DNA from: Carnobacteriaceae bacterium zg-C25
GTDB taxonomy: Bacteria > Bacillota > Bacilli > Lactobacillales > Aerococcaceae
Direction of reading: 5' to 3'
Assembly (NCBI GenBank): GCA_017945845.1
Contig: CP072828.1
Location: forward strand, 62,001 to 126,000
DNA length: 64,000 nucleotides
The notes beneath the pieces are model-generated. The model saw nothing but the letters and a program-made list of their open reading frames with translations. It made no database searches and was not told the origin of the DNA. The translations under genes and the position numbers were made by a program. How positions within the stretch are numbered: the stretch's first letter is position 1; each line of letters opens with the position of its first letter. Below, in pieces: positions 28,144 through 63,893 of the stretch.

Positions 28144-28213
28144 ATGTTGTTATATCAGTATTTTAAATGAAAGCGTATCACTATTTTTTATGAAAAAATT
28201 GTATGAAAAATGC

Positions 28214-28242
28214 GTGACAAATTATAAAAAGTGTTGTAAACT
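28214..28242 (+). promoter_or_regulatory. Promoter of the C-rich-loop small RNA candidate
   Basis: GTGACA (28214-28219), 17 bases, TAAACT (28237-28242). It predicts a transcript start near 28249, exactly at the first hairpin. Confidence 0.55.
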
Positions 28243-28248
28243 TATCAA

Positions 28249-28467
28249 AGTTCAAACAAAAGGTTTGAACAACTAGGCTAATAGTGTTGTTACCCCCTTT
28301 TCAACCTATTAAACTAGACATTCGCTAACAGGAAAGATGAACTTCATTCCCCCCTTTTTGATGAATCATCTATAAGTACTTTAGCGAACCTCATAAACTA
28401 AATCTTCCCCCTTTTAGATTTAGTTTCCCTAAACGTAACCAACCATTTTGGTTGGTTTTTTGTTTTT
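28249..28467 (+). ncRNA. Candidate small RNA with three C-rich hairpin loops
   Basis: Predicted ~215-base transcript with its own promoter and terminator. In order: 8-bp hairpin GTTCAAAC/GTTTGAAC (28250-28270); hairpin A (28279-28311) with loop UUACCCCCUUUU; hairpin B (28336-28370) with loop UCCCCCCUUUUUG, enclosed by an outer TTCGCTAA/TTAGCGAA helix (28321-28328 with 28381-28388); hairpin C, a perfect 11-bp stem (28395-28405 with 28416-28426) with loop UCCCCCUUUU; and a terminator (28437-28461). Repeated C-rich loops on separate stems recall staphylococcal Rsa RNAs and Listeria LhrC, whose UCCC loops pair with Shine-Dalgarno sequences. I know no named family with this exact layout. Confidence 0.7.
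28437..28467 (+). terminator. Terminator of the small RNA candidate
   Basis: AACCAACC (28437-28444) pairs with GGTTGGTT (28450-28457), then TTTTGTTTTT. A wider CCCTAAA/TTTAGGG helix (28427-28433 with 28465-28471) can also form. Confidence 0.88.
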
Positions 28468-28748: not shown

Positions 28749-30011
28749 TTATTGTGGGAAATACATTGCTGCACTTCTTCCGGCAATTGTGCCTGTAATA
28801 AATGCGGATGTAATATTATAGCCACCTGTGTAGCCGTGAATATCGAGTAGTTCGCCGCAACAAAATAGACCATCGACATATTTAGACATCATTGTTTGCG
28901 GAGAGATTTCTTTTACGCTAACGCCGCCTCCTGTCACAAAACTTTTTTCAATAGGTAGACTACCGTTTACGGTAAATGTAAAGTGTTTCAGTAGGGTAGC
29001 GATGCGATGAATCGTTTGCTCATCTAATTTAGACAGTGCGGTATTAGCATCTAAATTCAGTTGTTGAGCGTAAAAGAGTGCCAAGCGTTCGGGAATAAAT
29101 GTTTTGAGTACCGTTTTTAATTGTTTGGCACCGTCTGTTTTTTGGATGTGATGGAGTTGTGTAGTTAATTGCTCTTTGGATAAGGTGGTGCAACAGTCTA
29201 ATGATAAAGTGACGTTTTGATGTTGTGTTTTTTGTTGTTGGTGATACACAAAACTCGAACAACGCAAAACAGCAGGTCCGCTTACACCAAAGTGTGTAAA
29301 AATCATATCCATTTCATGTGTGACAATGGCTTTGCCCTTTTCATTAAGCACACTCAATCCAATACCGCGTAAAGATAACCCTTGTAATATTTTTTGCTGA
29401 ATAAATGGCTCATTACTAGTTAAGGGAACTTCTGTTGGGAAAAGGGGTGTAATCGTATGGCTAGCTTTTTTTAACCATGCGTACGCATCTCCTGTTGATC
29501 CTGTTTTGGGTACGGATTTTCCTCCTGTTGCTAAAATCACACAACGTGCAGAAACGTCTTTGCCGTTTGCCAATCGAACCCCTTTAATTGTGCCATCAAC
29601 AATGAGTAATTTCTTCACAGAGCAGTCGTACCATACGTCGATATGTAAATCGGTAATGCGTGCTTGAAATGTCTCTAAAATCGTACGCGCTTTATCAGTT
29701 GTCGGGAACATACGACCGTGATCTTCTTCTTTTAAAGTGACACCGTTTGAAGTGAAAAAAGACATAATGTCGTAATTGTCAAATTGGGAAAAAGCACTAT
29801 ATAAAAACTTACCATTTCCGGGGATGTGAGCAATAATTTCGTTGCTTGGACGATTGTTGGTAACGTTGCATCTACCGCCTCCTGTTAAGAGCAATTTACG
29901 ACCAAGAGATCCATTTTTTTCAATAATTAATACTTTTGCCCCGTATTCAGCAGCTTGAACGGCTGCCATTAAACCACTCGTTCCGCCACCAACTACAATA
30001 ATATCGTACAT
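28749..30011 (-). CDS. HI0933/YhiN-family FAD-dependent oxidoreductase
   Basis: 420 residues from ATG 30011 (AAGGAG eight bases upstream). The FAD-binding dinucleotide fold is at the start (IIVVGGGTSGLMAAVQAAE). GRCNVTNNRP, a second ATGGKSVPKTGSTGDAY region and the C-terminal GGYNITSAFITGTIAGRSAA close the flavoprotein fold. The family (BaiN relatives) is widespread; a physiological substrate is unknown for most members. Monocistronic on the minus strand. Confidence 0.88.
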   Translation of the reverse strand: MYDIIVVGGGTSGLMAAVQAAEYGAKVLIIEKNGSLGRKLLLTGGGRCNVTNNRPSNEIIAHIPGNGKFLYSAFSQFDNYDIMSFFTSNGVTLKEEDHGRMFPTTDKARTILETFQARITDLHIDVWYDCSVKKLLIVDGTIKGVRLANGKDVSARCVILATGGKSVPKTGSTGDAYAWLKKASHTITPLFPTEVPLTSNEPFIQQKILQGLSLRGIGLSVLNEKGKAIVTHEMDMIFTHFGVSGPAVLRCSSFVYHQQQKTQHQNVTLSLDCCTTLSKEQLTTQLHHIQKTDGAKQLKTVLKTFIPERLALFYAQQLNLDANTALSKLDEQTIHRIATLLKHFTFTVNGSLPIEKSFVTGGGVSVKEISPQTMMSKYVDGLFCCGELLDIHGYTGGYNITSAFITGTIAGRSAAMYFPQ

Positions 30012-30138
30012 ACGCACAACTCCTTAATTTTGTCTTATTCAGTATAGCACAAAAGTTTATGCAGGCTATAACATTTAACGCCGTACACACAGTAGTACAA
30101 ATAGATGTACGTAGTGCTGATCAATTAAAAGGAGCAAG

Positions 30139-30634: not shown

Positions 30635-30767
30635 AAAGATATTAAGTTTGAGGGCAGAAAGGCACCTGCCGCACCTTTAAAAAGGTATCTGAGATGTTGG
30701 ATACGCCGCCCAACCGAATTTAATGATTATCATACTTGCACCTATCAATTTGATGGGTGCTTTTTTT
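30635..30767 (+). ncRNA. Candidate ~133-base small RNA
   Basis: Bounded by a strong promoter and a strong terminator, with no gene downstream on this strand that the promoter could serve before termination. Possible helices: GGCAG/CTGCC (30653-30670) with an AAAGGCAC loop, ACCTT/AAGGT (30673-30686), GTTGG/CCAAC (30696-30714), then the terminator. The one long frame across it (30629-30826) runs through the terminator and is not coding in appearance. It is richer in GC than its surroundings. I could not match it to a known riboswitch, 6S, SRP or tmRNA core. Confidence 0.6.
30738..30767 (+). terminator. Terminator of the second small RNA candidate
   Basis: GCACCTATCA (30738-30747) pairs with TGATGGGTGC (30751-30760) with one G-U, then seven T. 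Confidence 0.92.
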
Positions 30768-56424: not shown

Positions 56425-56446
56425 ACGCTTTTACAAGGGGGAGGTT

Positions 56447-58231
56447 ATGGAAGAATTCAGAGTATCTGATCAGTTTTATCTTAATGGCAAACCGTTCAAA
56501 ATTCTTTCTGGAGCCATTCATTATTTCCGCGTGCCAAGTGAGGATTGGTATCATTCGTTATATAACTTAAAAGCACTTGGCTTTAATACGGTTGAAACGT
56601 ATGTGCCGTGGAATTTGCACGAATTTAAAAAGGGGCAGTTCGATTTTTCGGGAATGCTAAATATTGAGGCGTTTTTGGAAACGGCAAAATCATTAGGACT
56701 GTATGCTATTGTTAGACCATCACCATTTATTTGTTCTGAATGGGAATTTGGTGGCTTGCCAGCGTGGTTGCTCAATGAAAAAAACATGCGCATACGCTCA
56801 AGTGATCCAAAATTTTTAAATACTGTCAATCAATATTTTGATGAATTATTGCCACGATTGGTGAAACATCAACTACATGAAGGTGGCAACATACTCATGT
56901 TCCAAGTTGAAAATGAATACGGTTCGTACGGCGAAGATAAAGCGTATTTAAGAGCAATCAAACAGATGATGGAAGAAAAAGGGATAACAATGCCGTTATT
57001 CACATCGGATGGACCGTGGCGTGCAACGTTACGAAGCGGTAGTTTGATTGAAGATGATGTGCTGGTTACGGGAAACTTTGGTTCGCGAGCAAACGACAAT
57101 TTTGACAACATGCAAAAATTCTTTGATGAGCATGGCAAAAAATGGCCACTCATGTGTATGGAATTTTGGGACGGTTGGTTTAATCGCTGGAATGAACCGA
57201 TTATTAAACGTGATGGCGAAGACTTAGCGCAGTCTGTATTGGAGGCTTTGCAACGAGGCAGTGTAAATCTATACATGTTTCATGGGGGAACAAACTTTGG
57301 ATTTATGAACGGCTGTTCGGCAAGAGGACGGTTGGATTTGCACCAAATTACGTCATATGATTACGACGCACTTTTAAATGAGCAAGGTAATCCAACACCA
57401 AAATATTACGCCGTGCAAAAGATGATGAACGAACATTTCCCACAGTATCCGACAATGGAACCGTTGGTGAAAAAAACAATGCGTTCGCAAGCTGAGTTGA
57501 AAAACAGTGTTAATTTATTTGACACGTTACATACGTTAGGGCATCCGGCAAATAGTTTGTATCCGCAAACGATGGAGGCTTTAGGACAAAATATTGGTTA
57601 CACGTTGTATCGCACAAAAGCGGAAAAAGATGCAAATAGGGAAAGATACCGTGTGATTGACGGTAGTGATTATTTACAGTTTTTTGTAAATGGGGAATTG
57701 CTTGCTACTCAATATCAGATGGAAATAGGGGAAGATATATTCGCTGATTTAACACAAGATGTGAATCAAATTGATATTTTAGTGGAAAATATGGGACGTG
57801 TAAATTACGGCCATAAATTATTAGCGAATACACAACATAAAGGGATTAGAACAGGTGTGTGTGCCGATTTACATTTTATGACAAATTGGGAACAATACAC
57901 ATTTGAATGGACAAAATGTCCAACTGTTGATTATACGAAAGTTGCAAAACCAAATCGACCAACGTTTTATCAATATGATTTAACGCTTGATGAAGCAGAA
58001 GATACATTTTTAGATTTATCTACATTTGGCAAAGGGATTACTTTTGTGAATGGTATCAATGTTGGGAGATATTGGAATGTTGGTCCAATTGGATCGTTAT
58101 ATGTGCCAAAAGCATTTTTAAATGTAGGGCACAACGAGATTGTCGTTTTTGACGTTGAAGGTCAAGGTCAAAACACGTTACAAACTCAAAATGAACATGT
58201 TTTAATTGCCGTAACTGGCGAAAATAAATAA
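56447..58231 (+). CDS. bgaC: GH35 beta-galactosidase (BgaC/GnbG-like)
   Basis: 594 residues, the length of pneumococcal BgaC. (beta/alpha)8 domain: SGAIHYFRVP, VETYVPWNLHE, RPSPFICSEWEFGGLPAWL, acid/base Glu in VENEYGSYGEDKAY (~154) and nucleophile Glu in CMEFWDGWF (~237). Beta-sandwich domains follow. No signal peptide, so it acts in the cytoplasm on sugars from the adjoining PTS. BgaC-type enzymes cleave beta-1,3-linked galactose (lacto-N-biose, galacto-N-biose). Ribosome site AAGGGGGA. Confidence 0.92.
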   Translation: MEEFRVSDQFYLNGKPFKILSGAIHYFRVPSEDWYHSLYNLKALGFNTVETYVPWNLHEFKKGQFDFSGMLNIEAFLETAKSLGLYAIVRPSPFICSEWEFGGLPAWLLNEKNMRIRSSDPKFLNTVNQYFDELLPRLVKHQLHEGGNILMFQVENEYGSYGEDKAYLRAIKQMMEEKGITMPLFTSDGPWRATLRSGSLIEDDVLVTGNFGSRANDNFDNMQKFFDEHGKKWPLMCMEFWDGWFNRWNEPIIKRDGEDLAQSVLEALQRGSVNLYMFHGGTNFGFMNGCSARGRLDLHQITSYDYDALLNEQGNPTPKYYAVQKMMNEHFPQYPTMEPLVKKTMRSQAELKNSVNLFDTLHTLGHPANSLYPQTMEALGQNIGYTLYRTKAEKDANRERYRVIDGSDYLQFFVNGELLATQYQMEIGEDIFADLTQDVNQIDILVENMGRVNYGHKLLANTQHKGIRTGVCADLHFMTNWEQYTFEWTKCPTVDYTKVAKPNRPTFYQYDLTLDEAEDTFLDLSTFGKGITFVNGINVGRYWNVGPIGSLYVPKAFLNVGHNEIVVFDVEGQGQNTLQTQNEHVLIAVTGENK

Positions 58232-63091: not shown

Positions 63092-63242
63092 AAATAATCT
63101 CCTTTATATTTTTATATTTTTTTGAATTTTAAATACATACGTATCATATCCATAGTATCACAAAAAAAGGGTAAAATCTATTTTAAAATTTTTGTTTGCT
63201 TTGAAGACTTTTGGGCTATGTTATAGAAAAGGGGGAAGATGC

Positions 63243-63893
63243 GTGAAGTGGAGAGATGAATCTGGGGCGGTGTTGGTGTTAGAAAGCGGACTGGTCATGC
63301 AGGCGGTCATGCTATGTTTATTGCTGTTCGTATTATCCAGTACGATTATTTTACAAAAAAATCAAATGTATTATCACACCAATCGCGCAATAGATGCGTA
63401 TGCGAAAACGTTTGATAAAAGTGATTATTTGACGGCTGTTTCTCACAATAATCAGATAGATACAACATTAAAAGGCAGTGATTACATTGCGCTTTATCGC
63501 CAACCAAGACCGTACCGCTTTATATTTAGTCAGCCACCACAACCGTATCAAAGCATCAATACCGCAACCACAGGCATCCAAAAGGATGCTATTGGGAAAT
63601 TGAACGCGCTGAATATACACGTGGAAGTATCGACTAAAAAGTTAATACGAAAAATGGTGCGTGCGCAAGTTGATTATGCGTTGAATGTTTGGAATCATGT
63701 GTCGCCAAATGTGCAATTAGATAGCCACTTTGAAGTTACGGCACCGATATTGGCGGTTAATGATTTTGTAAACCAAGTGGATTTAGCGGGTGAAGTTATT
63801 CAAAAGCGGTTTTCTCCGATGAAATCGTTAGATCATGTGAAAGGATTGTTGCAACGATTGAACAGGGTGTTGCGAAAAATTCAGGTGCGTTAA
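63243..63893 (+). CDS. TadE-like pseudopilin/pilus assembly protein
   Basis: 216 residues from GTG 63243 (AAAAGGGGGAA five bases upstream; an earlier TTG has no site). The start DESGAVLVLESGLVMQAVM is the TadE-type N-terminus: charged tip, conserved E, then a single hydrophobic helix. The rest is extracytoplasmic and unlike known domains. With the next gene it suggests a Tad-like or competence-unrelated secretion/pilus cluster extending off the window. Confidence 0.55.
   Translation: MKWRDESGAVLVLESGLVMQAVMLCLLLFVLSSTIILQKNQMYYHTNRAIDAYAKTFDKSDYLTAVSHNNQIDTTLKGSDYIALYRQPRPYRFIFSQPPQPYQSINTATTGIQKDAIGKLNALNIHVEVSTKKLIRKMVRAQVDYALNVWNHVSPNVQLDSHFEVTAPILAVNDFVNQVDLAGEVIQKRFSPMKSLDHVKGLLQRLNRVLRKIQVR

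Follow-up and report, generated by a model that had tools for sequence, protein, structure and literature searches.

The window analysed here, 64,000 nt from the genome of Carnobacteriaceae bacterium zg-C25 (contig CP072828.1, positions 62,001 to 126,000), carries a small RNA of about 219 nt on its plus strand at 28249–28467. Its predicted minimum free energy of −59.3 kcal/mol compares with a shuffle mean of −31.9 (sd 3.95), giving a z-score of −6.94, and was equalled by none of 200 shuffles. The predicted fold comprises five hairpins, counting the 5′ hairpin and the terminator. The 5′ hairpin (GUUCAAAC..GUUUGAAC, 28250–28270) is followed by hairpin A (28273–28317), with the loop UUACCCCCUUUU at 28290–28301, by hairpin B (28321–28388), with the loop CCCCCCUUUUU at 28349–28359, and by hairpin C (28395–28426), with the loop UCCCCCUUUU at 28406–28415. 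An intrinsic terminator closes the RNA at 28437–28467, formed by a hairpin at 28437–28457 with a UUU loop and a U tail (one such site found against 0.2 expected). An earlier note on this DNA had described three stem-loops with C-rich loops and a terminator after them, and its sequences, coordinates and loops, as well as the terminator, proved accurate. A short reading frame within hairpin B (MNFIPPFLMNHL) was dropped for its poor spacing, by eye, to its ribosome site.

The loops themselves form an exceptional cluster. The two strands of the 1,422,407-base (1.42 Mb) genome together hold 20 copies of the motif CCCCCNTTT, and four overlapping matches, corresponding to the three loops, lie within about 120 nt of the sRNA—an arrangement expected about 1e-6 times per genome (Poisson, with the rate taken from the other 16 matches). 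Across the three homologous RNAs described below, all 12 C-runs of at least three residues are predicted to be mainly unpaired, 11 of them at 0.94 or above and one at 0.82.

Upstream, a promoter-like pair (GTGACA-17-TAAACT, 28214–28242, plus strand) would place the start of transcription near 28249–28250. Because it scores 9/12, and because the sRNA region holds three promoter-like sites against 3.4 expected, the pair is not significant alone; it exists as the earlier note had it, but its score is at chance level. Another promoter-like sequence, TTGATA-16-TATAAT (28248–28221, minus strand, 11/12), overlaps the sRNA promoter region and faces the 3′ end of the neighbouring ABC-transporter gene, and an antisense transcript from it is possible. 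That gene, on the same strand as the sRNA, ends 105 nt before it, with no other terminator-like site found between the two. Downstream, no plus-strand gene follows directly, again as had been observed: the next gene, on the minus strand at 28749–30017, encodes an HI0933 flavoprotein and is convergent with the sRNA. A catalogued small RNA, Skipping-rope (RF02924; 72.7 bits, cut-off 36.7), lies 2.2 kb downstream at 30643–30722 (plus strand).

On the evidence of its fold and its homologues, the feature at 28249–28467 is a real, LhrC-like small RNA that is present in all three genomes covered of what appears to be the genus Granulicatella, namely the source genome and two sisters, here called G001 and G002. 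The genus is taken from G001, whose ABC-gene stretch is contained in a contig of Granulicatella sp. WM01 (NZ_SPPB01000066.1). The G001 homologue, entered through a 31-nt blastn match, lies at positions 1443–1578 of locus L003 (fold z −8.87) and has a 5′ hairpin, a hairpin with the loop CUCCCUUUU that is the counterpart of hairpin B, hairpin C with an identical stem core and the loop CUCCCUUA, and a terminator; UUCCCU and AUCCCU stretches are predicted to be single-stranded, and hairpin A has no counterpart. The G002 homologue, at 1503–1750 of locus L241 on the minus strand (z −10.98), was found with R1, a one-sequence covariance model spanning hairpin C to the terminator. Its loops are UUCCCCCUUUUU (hairpin A), UCUCCCCUUUU (hairpin B) and UCCCCU. 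Both homologues retain the 5′ hairpin, the C-rich loops, the hairpin C stem core and the terminator.

Since a MAFFT alignment of the full-length sequences puts the 5′ hairpin and the terminator out of register, the stems were compared in loop-anchored form, and the rows for the 5′ hairpin, hairpin C and the terminator, with their register shifts, were left out as evidence. Between the window and G002, two-sided changes affect three of the nine stem A pairs, with no one-sided ones, and five of the nine stem B pairs; between the window and G001, stem B shows three of nine pairs changed on both sides and one on a single side. The stem C core (CUAAAUC/GAUUUAG) is identical in the three species and is therefore uninformative on covariation. 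Two-sided changes thus leave pairing intact in stem B across three species and in stem A across two, as expected of a structured RNA. The earlier note had made its proposal depend on homologous regions that conserve the C-rich loops and compensatory stem changes, and the two regions found here keep the loops while their stems change on both sides.

The sister loci also bear on whether the element acts independently. With the ABC-transporter gene ending 105 nt away on the same strand, no terminator-like site in between and a weak promoter, the element could belong to the ABC-transporter operon before it as a 3′ untranslated end, its hairpins terminating or protecting that mRNA without any function in trans. 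We regard this as quite improbable, since the same-strand genes that precede the homologues are unrelated, an amidase gene in G001 (181 nt upstream) and an NlpC/P60 gene in G002 (604 nt), so that the upstream neighbourhood of the RNA changes among the three species; terminator function would also leave the three C-rich loops unexplained, and an sRNA derived from a 3′ untranslated region could act likewise. By eye, no such RNA was seen in the 1.5 kb below the sisters' ABC gene, and the homologues are located elsewhere. In G001, the sRNA sits between the amidase gene and mscL. The convergent HI0933 gene is common to the window and G002 loci, and G002 has AAGACA-17-TATAAT in the position corresponding to the window's promoter pair; aligning the two upstream regions gave a score that 26 of 1000 mononucleotide shuffles also reached. 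Control by CcpA was considered and set aside: the half-site TGAAAGCG at 28168 is cre-like by eye, but its second half misfits, and none was seen upstream in G002.

Searches for more distant relatives used R2, a covariance model built from the three Granulicatella sequences, together with RF00616 (LhrC) and R1; the large covariance searches were run with stricter filters, at which some weak matches are lost. The earlier note had called for a covariance search across Lactobacillales, and among 395 genomes of the order R2 returned strong matches in the source genome, G001 and G002 (77–95 bits), but none outside the genus scored comparably. Five others reached E 0.01 (33–36 bits); by eye, four of these are plain terminators, and the fifth, in G106, is an LhrC copy, listed by RF00616 as well. 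In the source genome, RF00616, R1 and R2 each gave a single match (E ≤ 1, 1 and 0.01, respectively). Over 60 genomes, the blastn matches listed included, besides the source copy, only short ones of 15–48 nt; six of these loci (L016, L020, L023, L026, L002 and L019) were rejected as coding-like by eye, and L003 is the G001 homologue. Five other R1 matches in the family (L239, L242, L243, L245 and L246) showed no C-rich loop layout by eye. A triple-loop pattern matched five of the 395 genomes, the source sRNA itself and G061, G327, G357 and G373, and the letters of the last four look like repeats; the pattern misses the sister species because their loops differ.

The earlier note had also called for a genome-wide search for ribosome sites complementary to the loops. 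The source genome holds 39 copies of AAGGGGG, three of them antisense to the sRNA, and 17 of the 36 others qualify as ribosome-binding sites under one fixed rule, which requires a plausible gene to start 3–9 nt after the site. With in-frame upstream starts allowed, and applied alike in the three genomes, the rule accepts 37 of 147 sister sites (a stricter first version accepted 24 of 147); these censuses leave out the sRNAs' own antisense sites, three in the source and one each in G001 and G002. Pfam assigned 14 of the 17 genes to GH35, GH84 NAGidase, GH101, GH20, galactokinase, PTS EIIA, T2SSF (below cut-off), Flp1-like, YbjQ, ABC ATPase, 4HBT thioesterase, DUF6088 and GntR families and to a thioredoxin-fold protein with a lipoprotein-like start. 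It gave no match for the other three: the TadE-like protein, a secreted surface-like protein and L231. Matching ribosome sites are in excess at glycan-catabolism and surface genes.

Two of the sites lie within the window, exactly where they had been placed. The first, AAGGGGGA at 56435–56442 (plus strand), is the ribosome site of a gene for a GH35 beta-galactosidase (bgaC-like; ATG at 56447), and the second, AAAAGGGGGA at 63227–63236 (plus strand), is that of the TadE-like gene (GTG at 63243 by the rule, with other starts possible). The complementarity claimed between the latter and loop C is real, but it extends over 14 nt, including the loop C stem, and not ten. The name TadE-like likewise needs qualification, as Pfam gives the protein no family, but the protein does head a locus with T2SSE, T2SSF and Flp1-like genes. 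This Tad/Flp-like locus (T2SSE, T2SSF, Flp1-like and DUF5702; L479, C1:125229–131981) begins at the window's right edge, and 6.7 kb of it contain three AAGGGGG sites (p 0.0007, with the interval picked post hoc). With flanks included, the longest exact complementarity to loop C is that 14 nt for the TadE-like gene and 12 nt for T2SSF; GH84 reaches 13 nt with loop B, and GalK 10 nt with loop A. Outside the ribosome-site class, a GH31 gene with a signal-peptide-like start (L481, C1:1309000–1311600) carries AAAAGGGGG some 110 nt ahead of its start, adjoined by a cre-like sequence (by eye).

As a control, we used AAAGGAGG, for which 40 of 52 sites are ribosome sites; with transposase copies collapsed, these belong to 36 distinct genes, many of them housekeeping. 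One transposase gene occurs in five copies (L437, L438, L453, L456 and L471) with the identical ribosome site AAAGGAGG. The 36 control genes include no glycosidase and three or four sugar genes, a BPD_transp_2 permease not being counted among the latter. Glycosidases thus make up 4/17 AAGGGGG genes versus 0/36 control genes (p 0.008), and sugar genes 6/17 versus 3/36 (p 0.023) or 4/36 (p 0.045), in categories that were picked after the list had been seen. The site AAAGGGGG serves as a ribosome site at 9 of 13 non-sRNA positions in the source, 5 of 18 in G001 and 3 of 11 in G002 (source 9/13 versus sisters 8/29; Fisher 0.014).

These figures have to be weighed against another account, in which the sRNA is real, the AAGGGGG sites are ordinary Shine-Dalgarno variants, and the true targets lie elsewhere and are bound through shorter UCCC–GGGA pairing, a mode used by other Gram-positive sRNAs. 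We hold this to be quite possible, although not our favoured account. AAGGGGG pairs with the anti-Shine-Dalgarno sequence at −11.3 kcal/mol, almost equal to the −12.2 kcal/mol of AAGGAGG, and therefore needs no sRNA as its explanation; moreover, the predicted energies of duplexes with the sRNA overlap between candidate and control sites: the 17 average −19.6 (−24.0 to −16.6), and the 52 AAAGGAGG sites average −14.0, with −24.0 as their best. The excess of glycosidases and of Tad-locus sites, however, speaks against it, as does the extended pairing of 12–14 nt at two Tad-locus genes (loop C) and 13 nt at GH84 (loop B).

The sister genomes add to the case for ordinary sites, since few candidates recur there. 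The comparison covered 147 of 149 AAAGGGRG stretches, the two left out being the sRNAs' own. Only two of the 17 candidates recur at the site, and both do so in G002: GH84, with AAAGGGAGG, and the YbjQ-like gene, with AAAGGGGG and 34% identity. Sister stretches were matched by several ABC ATPases too, as expected of a large family. The galK sites (AAGGAGGGG in G002, AAAGGGG in G001) fit the loops of those species imperfectly. In G002, a bgaC homologue of 68% identity near AAAGGGGG was rejected, as the site lies inside the gene and is not a ribosome site.

The GH84 gene permits the closest comparison, being 94% identical in nucleotides between the source and G002 over 1,194 bases, with upstream DNA that is alike too. 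Its ribosome site reads AAAGGGGGG in the source genome versus AAAGGGAGG in G002. For source loop B, the predicted pairing energy is −22.3 kcal/mol at the source site and −15.4 at the G002 one; for the best G002 loop, it is −15.8 at the G002 site and −18.4 at the source site. By these duplex energies, the source site fits the source RNA, and the G002 site does not fit the G002 RNA. The GH84 copies (L224 and L384) are about 94–95% identical between species whose ABC gene is 67% identical, and the gene has therefore probably been transferred recently.

Taking the evidence together, we favour the reading that the RNA is a single-copy, trans-acting sRNA whose redundant C-rich loops block G-rich Shine-Dalgarno sites and lower translation, to which we assign a probability of roughly two in three. 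In this mechanism, the sRNA would be transcribed as a unit of about 219 nt that presents several redundant C-rich loops, CCCCCUUUU here and CUCCCU or UCCCC types in the sisters; a loop would base-pair in the cell with a G-rich Shine-Dalgarno sequence of the AAAAGGGGG type near a start codon, and the paired site would block ribosome entry, so that translation falls. The putative regulon would take in GH35, GH101, GH84, GH20, GalK, PTS EIIA and the Tad/Flp locus. Of these candidate targets, GH101, GH35, GH20, GH84 and GalK could strip host O-glycans and use them, with a pilus locus alongside. Because the C-rich loops match unusual G-rich ribosome sites, many of them at sugar-degrading and surface genes, the sRNA probably represses translation in the manner of the Listeria LhrC RNAs. 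For a multi-target repressor, the ribosome-site census gives indirect support only, and our confidence in the link to the candidate targets is moderate, since G-rich sequences are legitimate Shine-Dalgarno sites in their own right and the sisters repeat few of the candidates.

Repeated, near-identical loops are also the layout of sponge RNAs such as RsmY and RsmZ, and the RNA might instead sequester a protein that binds C-rich loops rather than act as an antisense RNA. This appears extremely improbable: the loops vary between species yet keep their resemblance to an anti-Shine-Dalgarno sequence (C5U4, CUCCCU, UCCCCU), and we know of no C-rich-loop-binding protein in these bacteria.

Beyond repression as such, we offer a more elaborate proposal as a speculation that is itself unlikely. 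An LhrC-like RNA outside Listeria may have loops that diverged by target class, with loop C directed at the Tad/Flp pilus, loop B at the GGGGGG sites of GH84, GH20 and PTS EIIA, and loop A at galactokinase, loops and sites changing between species. If this were true, one RNA would shift a commensal between attachment by pili and foraging on host glycans.

Small RNAs whose C-rich loops block ribosome sites form separate families in Listeria, Staphylococcus and Streptococcus. The window RNA differs from the Cia-dependent csRNAs of Streptococcus (RF02379), which carry a CiaR direct repeat in their promoters: no match to TTTAAG-N5-TTTAAG with up to three mismatches starts between 27198 and 28537, so none lies near its promoter. 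It gave no csRNA covariance match up to E 10, and the G001 homologue gave a weak one (23.9 bits, E 0.32). Both that CiaR repeat and repression by base pairing are reported for csRNAs (PMC8186281). UCCC motifs are described as serving mRNA binding in RsaE/RoxS, FsrA, RNAIII and SprD of Staphylococcus and Bacillus (PMC4132741). Up to E 10, the window RNA matched none of RsaE (RF01820), RoxS, FsrA, RNAIII and SprD in Rfam, and the G001 homologue scored only 16.3 bits with RsaE. Among the titles listed in a literature search, none is on a small RNA of Granulicatella; in the collection of papers searched, none joins LhrC with Granulicatella, or LhrC with Enterococcus, Lactobacillales and sRNA, and searches on sRNA control of sugar or glycosidase genes found nothing useful.

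The earlier note had proposed a new family, and no Rfam family indeed reaches its threshold for the window RNA, but the three-species model recovers LhrC copies, which makes LhrC the closest relative or analogue. R1 matches an LhrC copy at 32.4 bits, and R2 yields 70 matches (E ≤ 0.05) over 30 RF00616-derived loci (86,664 bases) versus none over 29 control loci of the source genome (87,232 bases); over 24 other loci plus the window, it matched the window RNA alone. The loop regions are alike as well, UCUUCCCCCUUUUAGA versus UCUUUCCCCUUUUAGA in LhrC, followed by UCCCUAAAC versus UCCCAAAC. True distant membership of the LhrC family, with an ancestor shared with the Listeria RNAs, nevertheless seems to us on the unlikely side. 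RF00616 scores the window RNA at 31.6 bits, short of its gathering cut-off of 110, with a genome-wide E of 0.023, and 82 of 246 genomes show some match at E ≤ 1. LhrC exceeds the Rfam cut-off in 27 of the 246, all in one other family, f7 (Listeria, as used of LhrC here, is the name of the Rfam family). For the G001 and G002 homologues, LhrC was absent from the matches up to E 5 and E 3, respectively, and short C-rich hairpin loops can converge.

The comparison of layouts shows both sides of this relationship. LhrC has a two-stem layout with a C-rich terminator loop and several near-identical copies per genome, whereas the window RNA has five hairpins and a UUU terminator loop, is present in one copy and is twice as long. 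For the LisRK-dependent promoter of LhrC, no LisR consensus was known according to one source (PMC4132741). In Listeria, most LhrC sites are reported to overlap the ribosome site, with tcsA bound upstream and degraded (PMC13350326); the GH31 leader site described above could act like tcsA. The three CU-rich target-binding sites of LhrC have their counterpart in three C5-6/U4-5 loops that are predicted to be unpaired. The sites are redundant and C-rich in both RNAs, and the principal one of LhrC1-5 sits in a hairpin loop that is almost the same as loop C. Hairpin C of the window RNA resembles LhrC stem-loop A, a UCCC stretch precedes the terminator as in LhrC, and targets are expected at G-rich ribosome sites. 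An LhrC-like RNA in another genus suggests either a wider and older group or strong convergence.
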